This document shows positions 2,532 through 59,574 of a stretch of DNA of 64,000 nucleotides, piece by piece. Both the position numbers and the translations under genes were made by a program. The stretch's first letter is position 1, and every line of letters starts with the position of its first letter. Below the pieces are notes generated by a model. The model did not search any database. It was not told where the DNA came from and saw nothing but the letters and a program-made list of their open reading frames with translations. The stretch covers positions 1 to 64,000 of the forward strand of contig JABWCR010000020.1 of NCBI GenBank assembly GCA_013359125.1, given 5' to 3'. The stretch comes from Armatimonadota bacterium. GTDB taxonomy: Bacteria > Armatimonadota > Fimbriimonadia > Fimbriimonadales > GBS-DC.

Positions 2532-2707
2532 AGCCGATCGATGCGGTAGGAGCCACCGTCGCATTGATACTCGCGGCATCCTTTGCGCTTCACCTGGGCA
2601 CGGGCTGGGAGCCGGATGCTCCGTTGGCAAAAACCGTCTCTGCCGCCTTCGCTTTGGCCATCATCGTTTACTTCGCATTGTTGGGACTGCAGGCGGTGCG
2701 CAAGTGA
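2510..2707 (+). CDS. Small two-helix membrane protein
   Basis: A 65-residue protein starts at GTG 2510, overlapping the aroKB end by 22 nt. Its stop codon overlaps the start of the kinase-like gene (GTGA at 2704-2707). Two hydrophobic segments are visible, about residues 12-30 and 41-62, separated by a short polar loop. The tight overlap on both sides suggests translational coupling between aroKB and the kinase-like gene. I do not recognise a family. The conserved spacing and membrane character make it more likely real than a chance ORF, but no function can be given. Confidence 0.7.
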   Translation: MDQRRSVEPIDAVGATVALILAASFALHLGTGWEPDAPLAKTVSAAFALAIIVYFALLGLQAVRK

Positions 2708-4410
2708 CCGGAAACATCGTTTCCAGTCGTTACGAACTTCTCGAAGCCATAGGGGAGTCGCCCCTCTTCATCGCGCATCGCGCTAAGGAACTCGCAACGG
2801 GCAAGAACGTGGTGCTTAAATCGCTCCGGCCCGTAGCTTCGGCCTCGCCAGCGGTAGTAGCCGCGCTGCGCAGCGTTGTCGGCAGTCTTAGCGCCCTGCG
2901 CGCGCCGAACATCTGCCAGATGCTGGGCATCGAGGAGCACAACGGCGACCTATTCCTCATCGAGCAATATTCGCGCGGGATAGACCTTAGAGCGCGCATC
3001 CAACGCACGGCGCCTTTCACTGTCGCCATCGCCGTGGACATCGCGCTCGGAATAGCAGAGGGCATTGCCGCCGCCCATTCTACCGGCGTCTCGCACGGCG
3101 ATCTTCGTCCAGAAAACGTCATAGTCGGACCCGATTGGCAAGTCTCGGTAACCGGGTTCGGATTGCTTTCCGTCTACGATGCCGATCCAACCCTCAAGTC
3201 AGCCCGCACCGCTTTGGCGATCCATTACGCTTCGCCAGAGCAAATCGCGGGCGAATCGCCATCGCCCTCGTGCGACATCTATGCAGTCGGCGCGATGCTA
3301 TACGAGATGGTGGTGGGCGCTGCGCCGTTTAGAGGAGAGCGCCCGCCCGACATAGCGCGCAGCATTATGCAAGATCCGCCTCCGTCTGCTCGTGCTTCTA
3401 ATGCCGCTGTGCCTAAGTCGGTCGACATCATCATTCAGCGGTGCCTTCAAAAAGAAGCGTCGGATCGATATGCCAGCGCTCAACAACTGATCTCTGATCT
3501 AAGAGAGGTCAAGGAGGCGCTCCGATTCGGCAAGCCGCTCAACTGGACGCCGTTCGATCAGCCTGCCGCTACAGCGGTCGTTAGCCAACAGGCAAGAGAG
3601 ATAGACGACGAGGACGAAGAAGAGGATAGCCTGCCGGCATGGATGCGCTTTATGCTCAAGGCTATGGGCGCCGCCGCGCTCCTGGCGGTGCTCGTACTAA
3701 TAGGCTTTGTGCTCTCGCTCTACGTTGCGCCTGATGAGCTTCCTGCTCCTAAATTGGTCGGCTTATCGGTCGAAGAAGGCCGCCGATCGGCCGCCGATTC
3801 TGGCTTTACGATCGAGGTCGAGCGACAAGACTACAATCCAAAAGCAGTCCCCGGCACGATTTACTTCTCTAGCGCTCCCGAAGGCCGACAACTCAAAAAA
3901 GGCTCGACCATTAAAGTCTGGGTCAGCCTTGGCGAACGCACCGTCGACCTTCCAGACGTAACGAACCTGCCAGCGTCCGAAGCCAGGCGAGAGTTGGAAA
4001 AAGCGGGTCTCGTCGTTTCCGATCGAGTGCAAGAACGCCCGAGCGAGGCTATCGAGTGGGGAAAAGTGATGGCCACACTGCCGCCTCCGGGCAGCAAAGT
4101 CTCCAGAGACCAACCCATTACCCTTATCGTTAGCCGCGGCGCCGATACAGCCCCGTTCGATGATGTGCAGGAAGAAACGACCAACGAACCGTCCGCGCTC
4201 AATCCGCGCTCGTTCGTTACTAACGTCCGCATTCCGCCCGGCGAGCATCGCGTTCGCATAGAGGTGGAAGATCAGATGAGCGTGCGCGATGTGGTAGACG
4301 AAACCCGAGACGGCGGCGAGACGGTCAGTTTCGATGTCGTAGGATACGGGTCGCGGGTCAAGATCCGCGTCTATATCGATGAAGAATTGATCCGGGAGAT
4401 TGCGAAGTGA
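2704..4410 (+). CDS. PASTA-domain Ser/Thr kinase homologue, probably a pseudokinase
   Basis: The layout is that of PknB/Stk1 kinases: a cytoplasmic kinase fold (about 9-275), an acidic linker (DDEDEEED), one membrane helix (319-341), two PASTA repeats (about 347-410 and 413-479) and an extra beta-rich C-terminal domain (503-568). Several kinase motifs are altered. The ATP Lys is present (VVLK, Lys39), and the catalytic loop reads HGDLRPEN (131-138) with Asp133 and Asn138 kept. However, the metal-binding DFG is GFG (151-153) and the Gly-rich loop is poor (IGESPLF). PASTA domains bind peptidoglycan or muropeptides in known members, so an extracytoplasmic sensor role is inferred. GTG start at 2704; the stop overlaps rpe (GTGA). 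Loss of the DFG Asp usually abolishes or greatly weakens phosphotransfer, so it may be a scaffold. Confidence 0.88.
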   Translation: MTGNIVSSRYELLEAIGESPLFIAHRAKELATGKNVVLKSLRPVASASPAVVAALRSVVGSLSALRAPNICQMLGIEEHNGDLFLIEQYSRGIDLRARIQRTAPFTVAIAVDIALGIAEGIAAAHSTGVSHGDLRPENVIVGPDWQVSVTGFGLLSVYDADPTLKSARTALAIHYASPEQIAGESPSPSCDIYAVGAMLYEMVVGAAPFRGERPPDIARSIMQDPPPSARASNAAVPKSVDIIIQRCLQKEASDRYASAQQLISDLREVKEALRFGKPLNWTPFDQPAATAVVSQQAREIDDEDEEEDSLPAWMRFMLKAMGAAALLAVLVLIGFVLSLYVAPDELPAPKLVGLSVEEGRRSAADSGFTIEVERQDYNPKAVPGTIYFSSAPEGRQLKKGSTIKVWVSLGERTVDLPDVTNLPASEARRELEKAGLVVSDRVQERPSEAIEWGKVMATLPPPGSKVSRDQPITLIVSRGADTAPFDDVQEETTNEPSALNPRSFVTNVRIPPGEHRVRIEVEDQMSVRDVVDETRDGGETVSFDVVGYGSRVKIRVYIDEELIREIAK

Positions 4411-54876: not shown

Positions 54877-56229
54877 TTACTCTTGCTTTTTGCCTTGCTC
54901 TAGGTCGAGCGCCGCGCCGATGAGTGTCTTTTCGACCGAACTCATATCCTGTCGTTGCAGGTCGCCGATCGCTTTGCCGATCTCGGAAGCCTCCGCCGTT
55001 CGACCTTGCTGCAGAAGGATCTGTTGCGTCTTTTGAAGCTCGTGCAGAGCCATGGTTGGGTTCAATTGGTGCGTCTTCATGCCCATGATCGTCTTTTCGA
55101 GAGCGCGGGATGCGATCGCCACTTGAGCTTCGCCCGCCACTCGCGCATCTTCGGGCAGAGAAGCCTTAGCCGCATCGGTCGTGAACTCGAATATCAGGTC
55201 AGCTGTGATCGTCTCTTCGGCTTCGGTTACAGGGTTTACATAGGCCAGTTTCGCCTTGGCCGCCCGATAGCTCCCGGCCGGATGGTTGGGGAAGTCGAAC
55301 TCGATCAGCGGCGTCAGCCTCGCTCCGCGCTCTAGGTCGACCATCGATAGGGTCGCCGTTCGACTTGCGAGGTTCATCTCGGCGCCGAACGCCTGGCGAA
55401 TCTGCACCCATCGCGCTAATTGAAGTTCGAGGCGAGGCGACCGAGCCACTACGTTCATCATCTTTTCCAGGTCGTCGCGAAACACCTCGGGGATGCGCTC
55501 AGGACGGTCGATGTAGTGGTATTTGCCGCCGCTTCGGCGAGCAATCCCAGCGATCAACTCTTCGTTGTAGTCCGGGCCAAAACCAAGCGCATTGATCGGG
55601 ATCGACCGCTCCTTGGCGCCGCCCGCCAACTGGGTAATGGCGGAAAAGTCTTTAATGCCGGCCGTGGGTTCTCCGTCGGAAAAGAGCACCAGGCGGTCGA
55701 GATATCCGGGTTGCTTGCCCGCGGCCAACTGTTGCAGGCCCAGCGAAAGCCCGTCGTAGAGGTTGGTCGTATTGCCCACTTGCAATCGCTGGATGTTCTG
55801 CTTGATCAGTTCTTTGTTCAGCACTCGGCGAGGCGGCATCAGAACCTCGACGATCTCTTCGAACGTTACAATCGAGAGCACATCCCGGTCGGTCAGCAGA
55901 TCGACCACATACGCGCAGGCCCGCTTGACGTACTCCAATGGCTCCCCTTCCATCGAACCGCTCTTGTCGATCACCAGGCACAGATTGAGGGGCGCTCGAC
56001 CGCCTGTCATCGCGCCGGTGGCAATCAGCTCGAAGAGAACCCTTTCGCGAGAGACGCCGTGCGCCAGCGTTACCGAGCGGCCTTGCGTTATCTGCAGCGT
56101 TAAGGGCGGACCGGTCGGGGCCCCGACCGGCATGGCTTGGGTCCGATTCGGATCGGTGCCGCCGGGCATCGCCTGAGTGCGATTGGGGTCGGGTATCTGG
56201 TTCGGGTCTATTCGCTGGGTTTGCTCCAT
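54877..56229 (-). CDS. VWA-domain protein with N-terminal DPNRTQ tags
   Basis: This 450-residue cytoplasmic protein has a von Willebrand A domain (about 78-270) with an intact metal site (DKSGSM 88-93, TTNLYDGL, LFSDGEPT) for ligand binding via a divalent metal. A beta domain and a helical tail follow (about 380-450, HELQKTQQILLQQGRTAEASE). The N-terminus carries tandem 12-residue tags: DPNRTQAMP at 14-22 and again at 26-34, plus TQ at 4-5 and DPNQ at 8-11. Thr18 and Thr30 with a following Gln resemble phospho-threonine sites recognised by FHA domains. Two FHA proteins are encoded upstream in the same operon. TACAAT and AGGAG precede the ATG. The tag-FHA link is inference. Confidence 0.88.
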   Translation of the reverse strand: MEQTQRIDPNQIPDPNRTQAMPGGTDPNRTQAMPVGAPTGPPLTLQITQGRSVTLAHGVSRERVLFELIATGAMTGGRAPLNLCLVIDKSGSMEGEPLEYVKRACAYVVDLLTDRDVLSIVTFEEIVEVLMPPRRVLNKELIKQNIQRLQVGNTTNLYDGLSLGLQQLAAGKQPGYLDRLVLFSDGEPTAGIKDFSAITQLAGGAKERSIPINALGFGPDYNEELIAGIARRSGGKYHYIDRPERIPEVFRDDLEKMMNVVARSPRLELQLARWVQIRQAFGAEMNLASRTATLSMVDLERGARLTPLIEFDFPNHPAGSYRAAKAKLAYVNPVTEAEETITADLIFEFTTDAAKASLPEDARVAGEAQVAIASRALEKTIMGMKTHQLNPTMALHELQKTQQILLQQGRTAEASEIGKAIGDLQRQDMSSVEKTLIGAALDLEQGKKQE

Positions 56230-56238
56230 AGTCGGCTC

Positions 56239-57060
56239 CTATTGTACGGCGTTCCAGGTCAGCCGGGGCGGATTGCTGCCCGGCACACAGTTATATTTCT
56301 CAAAATCGGTTACGCCTTCTTCTCTCAATACGTCTTCGTCTATCAGCGCCGTTCCCGTTCGATGGCTGGGCGGCTTGGACACGATGGCGGCGAGGGCGTC
56401 TGCGACGATCTCGGGCTTGCGCCAGTCCTTGGGTTGGCCCAACTGATAATTGATGCTGGCTTGGCTCTCGATGATGGTAGCCGGCCAAAGCGCATTGGCC
56501 GCGACGTTGTGCTGCTTGACCTCTTCGGCCAGACCGTAGACCATCATCGTCATGCCGAACTTGCTGATCATGTAGGCCGTCCGTTGAGAGATGACGCTCA
56601 TGTCGATCGGTGGCGACATGTTTACAATGTGCCCCCACTGGTTCTCTATCATGCTGGGCAAGAAGGCTCGCGCGCACAGGAACGACGCCCGCACGTTCAC
56701 CTCCATCACTAGGTCAAAGCGTTTGGATGGCGTCTCGGTTACGGGCTGCCACCATAGCGCGCCCGCATTGTTGACCAGAATGTCGACTCGGCCAAAGCGA
56801 TGCAGCGCAGCCTCGGCCAATCGCTCGATTTCGTCCTCATTCCGAACATTGGTTTGCATCGCCAGCGCCTCGACGCCGTACTGTTCGACTTCTCGCGCGG
56901 CGTCGTAGATGGTTCCGGGCAATCGTGGATCGGGCTCTACCGTTTTGGCGGCGATCACAATGTGGCAGCCTTCCTGAGCCAGGCGCAGCGCGCACGCCTT
57001 GCCGATGCCTCGGCTTGCGCCCGTTATCACGGCCACCCGTCCCTTCAAGCTCTCGCTCAT
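56239..57060 (-). CDS. Short-chain dehydrogenase/reductase, HSDL2-like
   Basis: This 273-residue SDR has the NAD(P) site VAVITGASRGIGKACA, NNAG, the catalytic Ser in IVNMSPP and YMISK (Tyr-x-x-x-Lys). The insert VEPDPRLPGTIYDAAREVE after the first Rossmann turn matches the HSDL2-type subfamily. The substrate is unknown, probably a lipid or steroid-like alcohol. Its ATG overlaps the stop of the FHA2 gene (ATGA), and it ends 9 nt before the VWA gene. An SDR in an FHA/VWA cluster is unusual. Confidence 0.9.
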   Translation of the reverse strand: MSESLKGRVAVITGASRGIGKACALRLAQEGCHIVIAAKTVEPDPRLPGTIYDAAREVEQYGVEALAMQTNVRNEDEIERLAEAALHRFGRVDILVNNAGALWWQPVTETPSKRFDLVMEVNVRASFLCARAFLPSMIENQWGHIVNMSPPIDMSVISQRTAYMISKFGMTMMVYGLAEEVKQHNVAANALWPATIIESQASINYQLGQPKDWRKPEIVADALAAIVSKPPSHRTGTALIDEDVLREEGVTDFEKYNCVPGSNPPRLTWNAVQ

Positions 57061-58382
57061 TCCGCTCTAAACCGAAACGGCCCTATTCTCACAATGTCCC
57101 CCGGTCGCAGGGCTTGCTGTTGGATTCGTTGTTCGTTCACAAAGGTTCCGTTAGTGCTATTTTCGTCGTACACGGTCATTTGACCTGCTTCGATGGCGAT
57201 TCGGGCATGGCGGCGGCTGACCGAGCCGTCCGGCAGAACGACCGAGCAGCCTGCTTCGCGCCCAATGATCAGCCCGCTTTGCGAAGGCGAGATGCGTTGA
57301 CCGGCGAACGGGCCGTCCATGCCGACCAAGACAGTTGAGATCGATCCTATTGGTTGTTGAGCGGGCGCCGGCGTCGAGCAAGCGCAAAGGCCGGTGGCCG
57401 GGTCTTTTGTTTGACCGCAAAATTGGCACACGCCCGGCGGTGCGAGCGGCGGCAAGGGAGCGCGAGCTTGATCTCTCGCCCGTTGCGCCGCGCCTGCTTT
57501 CAACCTGAATTGCAGGGTAAACGTGCTGATGGCGATGGTTTCGCCATCCTTGAGCACATGGGGCTGGTTGCCGCCGGCCAGGTCGATCAAGACGTATTGC
57601 GCGCCTTGTCGAACGATCTTGGCATGGAGCGGCGCGACGTTGAGATCGCCCATCAGCGGCACGTCGGCGGTCTCGTTGCGCCCGATCAGGCTCTCGGCTC
57701 GGTGCAGGGGATAGTCGCGGCCTTCGTTTCTCCCCAGCAGCACGCGCACCCAAGCCTGCCGGGCGATCAGTTCGATCAGCCCGACAAAGAGACCTATAGC
57801 CGCCCCGGTGATGACCAATCCTATCGCCCTCTGAAAAACGCCTTGGTCCGAACCTTGCAGCGACTTTTGAAGCAGGGTATAGAGCGGCGCCATGAGCGGC
57901 GAGAGGGTCTCAAACAGAAAGCCGCCTATGCCGCCGCCGATCAAACCGCCCAACAATCCTTGCCGAGCGCGACTGGCAGAGCGACCGACGATTCCTTCCG
58001 ATAGGCCAAGAAATGCCCCAAACGCGCCCCAACCAAGAGTGCGGGCGATGAGGGGCAAGGGAAACGGGCCGCGATCTCCGCCGAGAGCGCCGTAGATCTG
58101 CTGACCGATATAGAGACCGACCAACCCCGCAAATGCCCCCGCTGCCAGACCTCCGTATAGACCGCGCAGAGCGTGCGCCCGGGTGCCTAGGCCCAGACCG
58201 CTGGCCATCCCGATCAAGCCGCCGATGCAGGCGCCGACAACGATCCCCCAGAGCAGGAACGTAACCATCTGCTCGGAGGAGAGGATCGCCACGGCCCCCG
58301 GATTGAAGGCGATCTCGCCGATCAGCCAGCCTAAAAGGCCGCCAACTCCTCCCGCAATCAACAGGTAAAGCAGTCGCTGCAC
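57057..58382 (-). CDS. Polytopic membrane protein with two FHA domains and a zinc ribbon
   Basis: This 441-residue protein starts with about six Gly-rich hydrophobic segments (QRLLYLLIAGGVGGLLGW; GIVVGACIGGLIGMASG; GLLGGLIGGGIGGFLFE and others, roughly 1-210). A first, weak FHA-like domain (ESLIGRNETADVPL) follows, then a zinc knuckle (CQFCGQTKDPATGLCAC). The C-terminal FHA is canonical (GLIIGREAGCSVVLPDGSVSR, RHARI, STNGTFVNEQRI), with the phosphopeptide-binding Arg, Ser and Asn residues. GTG 58382 directly follows the FHA1 stop; a TTG at 58415 would overlap it. The knuckle closely matches that of FHA1. Confidence 0.87.
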   Translation of the reverse strand: MQRLLYLLIAGGVGGLLGWLIGEIAFNPGAVAILSSEQMVTFLLWGIVVGACIGGLIGMASGLGLGTRAHALRGLYGGLAAGAFAGLVGLYIGQQIYGALGGDRGPFPLPLIARTLGWGAFGAFLGLSEGIVGRSASRARQGLLGGLIGGGIGGFLFETLSPLMAPLYTLLQKSLQGSDQGVFQRAIGLVITGAAIGLFVGLIELIARQAWVRVLLGRNEGRDYPLHRAESLIGRNETADVPLMGDLNVAPLHAKIVRQGAQYVLIDLAGGNQPHVLKDGETIAISTFTLQFRLKAGAAQRARDQARAPLPPLAPPGVCQFCGQTKDPATGLCACSTPAPAQQPIGSISTVLVGMDGPFAGQRISPSQSGLIIGREAGCSVVLPDGSVSRRHARIAIEAGQMTVYDENSTNGTFVNEQRIQQQALRPGDIVRIGPFRFRAE

Positions 58383-58383
58383 G

Positions 58384-59574
58384 CTAGGCCTCGACCTTAA
58401 ACTGCACCGCGCCAAACTGCACCGTGTCGCCCGTATTGAGCACGGTCTCGGCAGCGATCTTGGCGCCGTTCACATAGGTTCCGTTGCTGCTTCCCAAATC
58501 GACCACGAACAAGCCCGAATCGTCCATGCGCAACTGCGAATGGCGGCGGCTGACGGTCGGATCGTCCACCATCAGTTCGTTGCCGATTTCTCGTCCGACG
58601 GAGATGGAGCCTGACGAAAGAGGAATGCTCTGTCCAGCCAGGGCGCCCGTCAGGCCGACCAATCGAGCGGGCTTTCCGACAGCGGCAACGGTCGGCGCGG
58701 CGCTCAGGTCGCAAGCGCAGGCGCCGGTCGCGGGGTCCTTCTTCTGACCGCAAAACGGGCAATGGCCTTCGGGCGTTAACGGAGCAGCCGCTACTGTTTG
58801 ATCCGCTTCGGGTTCAGCCTGTGCGTCGGGCAGTTTGACGCCCAATTTTGCCATCGTATCGGCCACTTGCTGGTTTTTGCCCTGAACAAATCTTAGGATT
58901 CCGTACAGCGCCGCGCCGCCCACCAGCAGCGCCAATAAAATGGGCACAAACCGCCATAGAGTGGGCGAATCGGGTTCGGATACTGCCGTCGTCGCATCGG
59001 TCGATGCGGGTCGATCCAAGACCGGCGCATCTGCCGAGACCGCAATGGTCGCTACCGGCCCAGTTCCGCGCTCCTTTTTGATCTCGATGTCTTGGCTCGC
59101 GGTCTTGTTCTCTCCATAAGTCGCCTCGATCTTGCCCGATCCGAGCGCGACTCGGTCAAAGACTGCCTTTCCGCCGTCGCTCGGCATCATGGCGACGGTA
59201 TGAATCTTGCCTTTGCCGTCGGTTAGCTTGACCATGGCCGCTGCGACCGATTTGCCCTCCTTCTCGATCGCCACGATCACCCGATTGGCAAACGCGAAAT
59301 GCTCTTCCTTGACTTCGATCTTGTCTTCCTTCAGGTCGAGCAGAGCCAAGTTGCTCGACTTATCGTCCAGTGCTGCCAGCTTGACCGCTTTGTCGGGCTT
59401 TGTAATCTCAAGGCTCTTTTCCTCGTGCTTTTTGGCCGGAGCCAACGGCTTGCCGTCCGCGCTCTCGAACCAATACCATCGGAGCGCCGCGTCGCCAAAA
59501 TCGACCGTGAATTTATCTTGAGCCCAGACCACAGTCCCGGACAATAACGCCAGTAAAATCAATGCGATTCGCAT
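58384..59574 (-). CDS. Single-pass FHA-domain protein with a zinc ribbon
   Basis: This 396-residue protein has a signal peptide (RIALILLALLSGTVVWAQ), an extracytoplasmic beta-rich region (about 25-200) and a membrane helix (about 222-244, FVPILLALLVGGAALYGIL). A cytoplasmic zinc knuckle follows (CPFCGQKKDPATGACAC), then an FHA domain with GSISVGREIGNELMVDDPTV, SRRHSQ and SSNGTYVNG. Its outside sensor plus inside phosphothreonine reader suggests transmission of an envelope signal. GGGAGGG 6 nt before ATG 59574 sets the start. It is the first gene of the FHA1-FHA2-SDR-VWA operon. Confidence 0.88.
   Translation of the reverse strand: MRIALILLALLSGTVVWAQDKFTVDFGDAALRWYWFESADGKPLAPAKKHEEKSLEITKPDKAVKLAALDDKSSNLALLDLKEDKIEVKEEHFAFANRVIVAIEKEGKSVAAAMVKLTDGKGKIHTVAMMPSDGGKAVFDRVALGSGKIEATYGENKTASQDIEIKKERGTGPVATIAVSADAPVLDRPASTDATTAVSEPDSPTLWRFVPILLALLVGGAALYGILRFVQGKNQQVADTMAKLGVKLPDAQAEPEADQTVAAAPLTPEGHCPFCGQKKDPATGACACDLSAAPTVAAVGKPARLVGLTGALAGQSIPLSSGSISVGREIGNELMVDDPTVSRRHSQLRMDDSGLFVVDLGSSNGTYVNGAKIAAETVLNTGDTVQFGAVQFKVEA

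Follow-up and report, generated by a model that had tools for sequence, protein, structure and literature searches.

The window analysed in this study, that is, the whole stretch of 64,000 nucleotides from contig JABWCR010000020.1 of an Armatimonadota bacterium of the order Fimbriimonadales (assembly GCA_013359125.1), carries on its minus strand four consecutive genes (Table 1). In order of transcription, they encode two membrane proteins with FHA domains (FHA-A and FHA-B), a short-chain dehydrogenase (SDR), and a protein with a von Willebrand factor A domain (VWA). A previous annotation made from the DNA letters alone (hereafter, the original prediction) had placed these genes correctly and had proposed that phosphorylated threonine tags on the N-terminal tail of VWA are read by the FHA proteins.

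The tail of VWA contains the peptide DPNRTQAMP twice with a period of 12 residues, centred on Thr18 and Thr30, as the original prediction described, together with a site at Thr4 (MEQTQ) that it had missed and that aligns with MDRTQ or MDQTQ of relatives. Seven of the nine codons differ between the two copies of DPNRTQAMP, and every change is synonymous; the tags are therefore no fresh duplication, and it is the peptide rather than the DNA that has been conserved, which argues for selection acting on the peptide. Among the VWA orthologues read, the N-terminal linker outside the tags varies in length and sequence, and the threonine-centred tags are kept, with two to four per tail. In 69 distinct linker sequences, the motif [RK]TQ was observed 99 times and DPx[RK]T 125 times, whereas shuffling the residues inside each linker gave 2.1 ± 1.4 and 0.3 ± 0.6, respectively; DPx[RK]T did not occur in the protein core. 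As a script placed the linker boundaries and some linkers are too short or include codons 5' of the likely start, the tag counts per protein are approximate. Recent duplication or low complexity as the origin of the tags was ruled out by the codon divergence together with this enrichment. The consensus of 163 tags was D-P-N-[R/K]-T-Q-[A/M/L]-[M/G/I], the position +3 being mostly Met, Gly, or Ile. In the genome of the window, the pattern DPN[RK]TQ matched exactly twice, both times in the VWA gene, while across 61 related genomes 83 matches were obtained versus 2 for a reversed control pattern. Forty-seven of these were located in VWA genes, 20 beside genes of a tandem-FHA protein (FHA-C), and 16 were unassigned; because the search pattern is degenerate, some of these 16 have codons for Asn, Ser, or Gln at the Arg/Lys position. 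Sites of the tag kind, T-[Q/V]-[A/M/I/V], were also found in FHA-C and in many FHA-B linkers.

The conserved residues of the phosphopeptide pocket (G-R, S-x-x-H, and N-G) were present in 32 FHA-A orthologues and in the second FHA domain (FHA2) of 94 FHA-B orthologues, and the closest solved fold to the FHA domain of FHA-A was GarA (39% identity). The expectation that both proteins are canonical readers was thus upheld for FHA-A and for FHA2, with the amendment that FHA-B contains a further FHA domain ahead of FHA2 (FHA1), which is degenerate and lacks the phosphate-binding Ser and the Asn. The external domain anticipated for FHA-A was recovered in the structural model, with a signal peptide, a beta-rich ectodomain, and a transmembrane helix; the matches listed for FHA-A in the fold search were to FHA domains and domains related to them, and none of those listed was to the ectodomain. 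The nearly identical zinc knuckle noted earlier in both proteins is indeed there, with its cysteines present in only about 26% of the 94 FHA-B orthologues. As the knuckle is gone in one large family of the order, it was rejected as an essential part and counts as ancestral but dispensable.

The AlphaFold model of VWA, which has no FHA domain, had a mean predicted local distance difference test (pLDDT) score of 89.7 and a predicted template modelling (pTM) score of 0.82, with the tail (residues 1-40) disordered at a pLDDT of 52-59. The top match in the Protein Data Bank (PDB) was ArnB in the ArnA-ArnB complex (8s05_A; E 3.2e-25, template modelling (TM) scores 0.67/0.78), followed by a vWA protein of Catenulispora acidiphila (4fx5; TM scores 0.72/0.75), the nearest bacterial solved fold, compared by fold alone, then by the ArnB paralogue vWA2 (5a8j) and by Sec23/24. 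The matches to 8s05, 4fx5, and 5a8j spanned about 410-430 columns. In the helix bundle, EKT[IL][IM]G occurs twice, around Thr380 and Thr435 (54916-55110), with an invariant threonine and a resemblance to the tag variant NKT[VI][LI]G.

Strong relatives of VWA were detected in most of the 61 related genomes, and the family was found in 205 of 291 Armatimonadota genomes (E ≤ 1e-30); the best 80 loci for the family were nearly all labelled Armatimonadota, a few bearing other or unspecific labels. Outside the phylum, the vWA relatives obtained from a plasmid collection were all generic, and none of the four plasmid neighbourhoods read contained a gene for an FHA protein, a PP2C, or a Ser/Thr kinase. 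The original prediction had suggested examining the conservation of the operon, and in deep-branching relatives the gene order proved to be FHA-A, FHA-B, VWA, FHA-C, a PP2C phosphatase, and a Ser/Thr kinase, the last two being confirmed by Pfam in one such locus. This six-gene operon was complete at 18 loci examined, which are loci and not independent genomes, as several contigs were counted twice, and partial at others. At two deep-branching loci (L155 and L235), genes resembling holo-ACP synthase and NAD(P)HX epimerase/dehydratase were observed just upstream of FHA-A.

The window keeps the first three module genes of this operon, FHA-A, FHA-B, and VWA. The other three are found elsewhere in the same genome, with the kinase on contig C12 (L095:8630-10249), FHA-C on contig C7 (L089:8196-9020), and PP2C on contig C18, an arrangement that reflects dispersal of the operon. 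The original prediction had reported the operon to be without a kinase, which is correct for the window, and the kinase on contig C12 is both catalytically intact and part of the ancestral operon. In this kinase and its operonic orthologues, the Lys of VA[IL]K, the Asp of HRD, and the Asp of DFG are intact, and the Gly-rich loop is replaced by REIARSNDI[VI][YW]EA with minor variants. The operonic kinases are 37-63% identical to the kinase of this genome, versus 33% for the PASTA pseudokinase encoded in the window. Directly after the module kinase (C12, L095:10271-11170) lies a gene for a zinc-ribbon protein with a transmembrane segment and the stretch PNATIIGAP, which resembles the tag variant DPNKTVIGG.

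FHA-C is a soluble, tagged protein with a zinc ribbon and tandem FHA domains, thereby carrying tag and FHA on the same chain, and its gene directly follows VWA in the deep branches; in the FHA-C of this genome, the zinc-ribbon matches were sub-threshold only. In most Fimbriimonadales, FHA-C is no longer part of the operon, and FHA-A, FHA-B, and VWA remain adjacent. At L172, L181, L184, L185, and L244, the FHA-C frame extends upstream into an apparent end of a J-domain LSNPELRAEYDK, which suggests a possible DnaJ-FHA fusion in one lineage. Two genomes of 1.5 Mb and 97% completeness have no VWA, FHA of any kind, PP2C, or active kinase, only the PASTA pseudokinase without catalytic residues remaining.

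Two further genes of the window were considered as candidate parts of the module. The SDR, counted as a member of the set by the original prediction, was rejected as a functional part because its orthologues are located elsewhere in 14 of 17 other family genomes and it was seen inside the operon at no other locus examined. The PASTA homologue at 2704 has HGD in place of HRD and GFG in place of DFG, in agreement with the inactivity ascribed to it earlier, and was rejected as the module kinase for this reason. Homologues of this pseudokinase are kept where the module is lost, in the reduced genomes (L254 and L255), and its retention there without an active kinase probably indicates a separate role. 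Scans for promoters and terminators in the operon gave nothing above shuffled sequences.

Table 1. Positions of the module genes, their domains and tags, and other genes discussed in the window.
Feature	Position	Strand	Remarks
VWA protein, 450 amino acids: disordered N-terminal tag array, split beta-sandwich, vWA with intact metal ion-dependent adhesion site (MIDAS), C-terminal four-helix bundle (ArnB-like)	54877..56229	-	
C-terminal four-helix bundle, residues 362-445	54895..55146	-	Thr380, Thr401, Thr435 invariant (55 orthologues)
Beta-sandwich, second part, residues 260-350	55180..55452	-	AlphaFold model and fold search
vWA domain, residues 81-258	55456..55989	-	MIDAS D88-x-S90-x-S92, T154/T155, D185 invariant (55 orthologues)
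Tag 2, DPNRTQAMP, residues 26-34, Thr30	56128..56154	-	Thr in 53/55 aligned orthologues
Tag 1, DPNRTQAMP, residues 14-22, Thr18	56164..56190	-	Thr in 51/55 aligned orthologues
TQ site 1, MEQTQ (Thr4)	56212..56229	-	Missed by the original prediction
SDR	56239..57060	-	Translocated bystander
FHA-B: several transmembrane helices, degenerate FHA1, zinc knuckle, canonical FHA2	57057..58415	-	
FHA-B FHA2	57081..57269	-	G-R, S-R-x-H, N-G in 94/94 orthologues
FHA-B zinc knuckle CQFCGQTKDPATGLCAC	57378..57428	-	
FHA-B FHA1, degenerate	57498..57713	-	Lacks Asn and the phosphate-binding Ser
FHA-A: signal peptide, beta-rich ectodomain, transmembrane helix, zinc knuckle, canonical FHA	58384..59574	-	ATG start
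FHA-A FHA domain	58411..58605	-	R328, S342, R343, H345, N364, G365 invariant (32 orthologues)
FHA-A zinc knuckle CPFCGQKKDPATGACAC	58711..58761	-	Ancestral; missing from one large family
FHA-A transmembrane helix, residues 206-232	58879..58959	-	
FHA-A ectodomain, residues 20-180	59035..59517	-	All beta in model
PASTA pseudokinase, HGDLRPEN and VTGFG	2704..4410	+	Not the module's kinase

The genes, their conservation, the operon order, the co-loss, the predicted folds, and the intact catalytic and phosphate-binding residues were observed or computed, and on this comparative basis we consider it likely that a phosphothreonine switch is shared across the Armatimonadota and that the window holds what is left of it in one genome of the Fimbriimonadales. 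In this switch, a kinase would write a tag array that is bound by FHA proteins and reset by PP2C. The writer would be the membrane Ser/Thr kinase, phosphorylating the tag threonines; the readers would be the membrane proteins FHA-A and FHA-B and the soluble FHA-C, and the tagged partner would be the ArnB-like vWA protein with its flexible N-terminal tail. The FHA domains may bind the phosphothreonine tags, several at once, so that VWA would dock on the membrane readers or on FHA-C. Since FHA-A and FHA-B are membrane proteins, a recruitment of VWA to the membrane is suggested. The MIDAS face of the docked VWA could hold an acidic ligand, and the PP2C eraser would then release the protein. A more specific proposal, to which we give somewhat less than even credence, is that one kinase writes a repeated, near-invariant phosphothreonine barcode, DPN[R/K]TQ[A/M], on the disordered tail of the ArnB/Sec23-like vWA protein, and that it is contested by several FHA readers, of which two are membrane-bound; the result would be a graded, multivalent switch, present throughout the phylum, through which a signal from the envelope is passed on.

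Several observations weigh against a phosphothreonine switch of this kind. In the family to which the genome of the window belongs, VWA is usually not linked to the FHA pair, and with the kinase, PP2C, and FHA-C on other contigs here, the functional link is drawn from relatives. The co-loss happened once, in a single clade of reduced genomes, and counts as supporting evidence only, and Gln occupies position +1 in just 55% of the tags. The phosphothreonine tag read by FHA proteins, as originally predicted, has gained strong comparative support from tag conservation, the operon with kinase and phosphatase, the co-loss, and the invariant FHA pocket, while phosphorylation and binding, as well as the direction of recruitment, the MIDAS ligand, and the output of the system, are what we infer.

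The three invariant threonines of the helix bundle could instead be the true phosphorylation sites, by analogy with ArnB, which is phosphorylated at C-terminal threonines. It is unlikely that they are the principal sites and that the N-terminal tags are secondary or serve as unphosphorylated adaptor motifs: the invariance of Thr380, Thr401, and Thr435 in 55 orthologues is in keeping with such a role, but they sit in confidently modelled helices (pLDDT >90), and a deeply conserved, repeated, threonine-centred tag on a disordered tail would be left unexplained. The tags might instead be read mainly by the soluble FHA-C, with VWA and FHA-C forming a cytosolic complex like ArnA-ArnB and the membrane FHA proteins binding the kinase or other partners. 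The ArnA-like order of zinc ribbon followed by FHA in FHA-C, its position directly after VWA in the deep branches, its own copies of the tag motif, and several loci that show only VWA, FHA-C, PP2C, and kinase (some of their contigs being truncated) are all consistent with that arrangement. However, the departure of FHA-C from the operon in most Fimbriimonadales, leaving the other three genes adjacent, fits a tight link of VWA to the membrane readers, and we regard a leading role of FHA-C as rather doubtful, though less so than phosphorylation centred on the bundle. It is very improbable that the tagged tail is simply duplicated or of low complexity and has no function related to FHA. The linker is otherwise variable in both length and sequence, as such a tail might be, but the tag copies diverge in their codons, the threonine is kept across the phylum, and the same pattern is enriched in a second gene, which encodes FHA domains.

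The proposed phosphothreonine switch can be compared with the archaellum regulatory network of Sulfolobus (kinases ArnC/ArnD, phosphatase PP2A), in which ArnA binds phosphorylated ArnB through its FHA domain and makes a weak, phosphorylation-independent contact through its zinc finger (PMC6509490, PMC12852372). Both have a three-part vWA fold (predicted here), a partner with zinc finger and FHA domain, and a Hanks-type kinase; the split beta-sandwich and helix bundle are present in the VWA model, and FHA-C adjoins the vWA gene in deep branches. Phosphothreonine-dependent FHA binding is shown in ArnA-ArnB and proposed for Armatimonadota. However, the Armatimonadota tags are N-terminal and repeated, whereas the ArnB sites lie in the C-terminal bundle, and Armatimonadota have three FHA proteins, two of them membrane-bound, and PP2C instead of PP2A. 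VWA is about 16% identical to ArnB, and no Pfam family for the ArnB C-terminal domain was found in 55 VWA orthologues at E up to 1; membership of the ArnA-ArnB family is therefore not claimed. In GarA/OdhI and DgcB, phosphothreonine on a flexible N-terminal tail is the ligand of an FHA domain, as is proposed here. For DgcB, binding of the tail phosphothreonine by the FHA domain has been shown, with an important +3 residue (PMC6733907). In those proteins, the tag and the FHA domain reside on one chain, while the arrayed tags described here are mainly on a separate vWA protein; VWA has no FHA domain for such self-tagging, and FHA-C has both elements.

Sets that similarly mix a writer and an eraser with vWA or FHA parts are the TerY-P triads (vWA, PP2C, and kinase) and the PpkA-PppA-Fha set of the type VI secretion system. 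To our knowledge, TerY-P lacks an FHA set, and we noticed no secretion genes among the neighbourhoods that we examined. Searches of a literature library found no paper joining Armatimonadetes and FHA domains, and nothing on an MDC1 TQ-tag precedent. Combinations of kinase, phosphatase, FHA, and vWA proteins are thus already known and the fold is ArnB-like; what sets this module apart is its repeated N-terminal tag array, its pair of membrane FHA readers, and an arrangement of six genes that extends across the phylum.

With this module, a little-studied phylum gains a complete set of phosphosignalling parts and a predicted code of kinase, substrate, and reader, which is open to testing with short peptides. 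The module also links bacteria to the archaeal ArnA-ArnB switch and to the Sec23/24-like fold, with a phosphotag that is predicted to lie at the opposite end of the vWA protein and to be multiplied.

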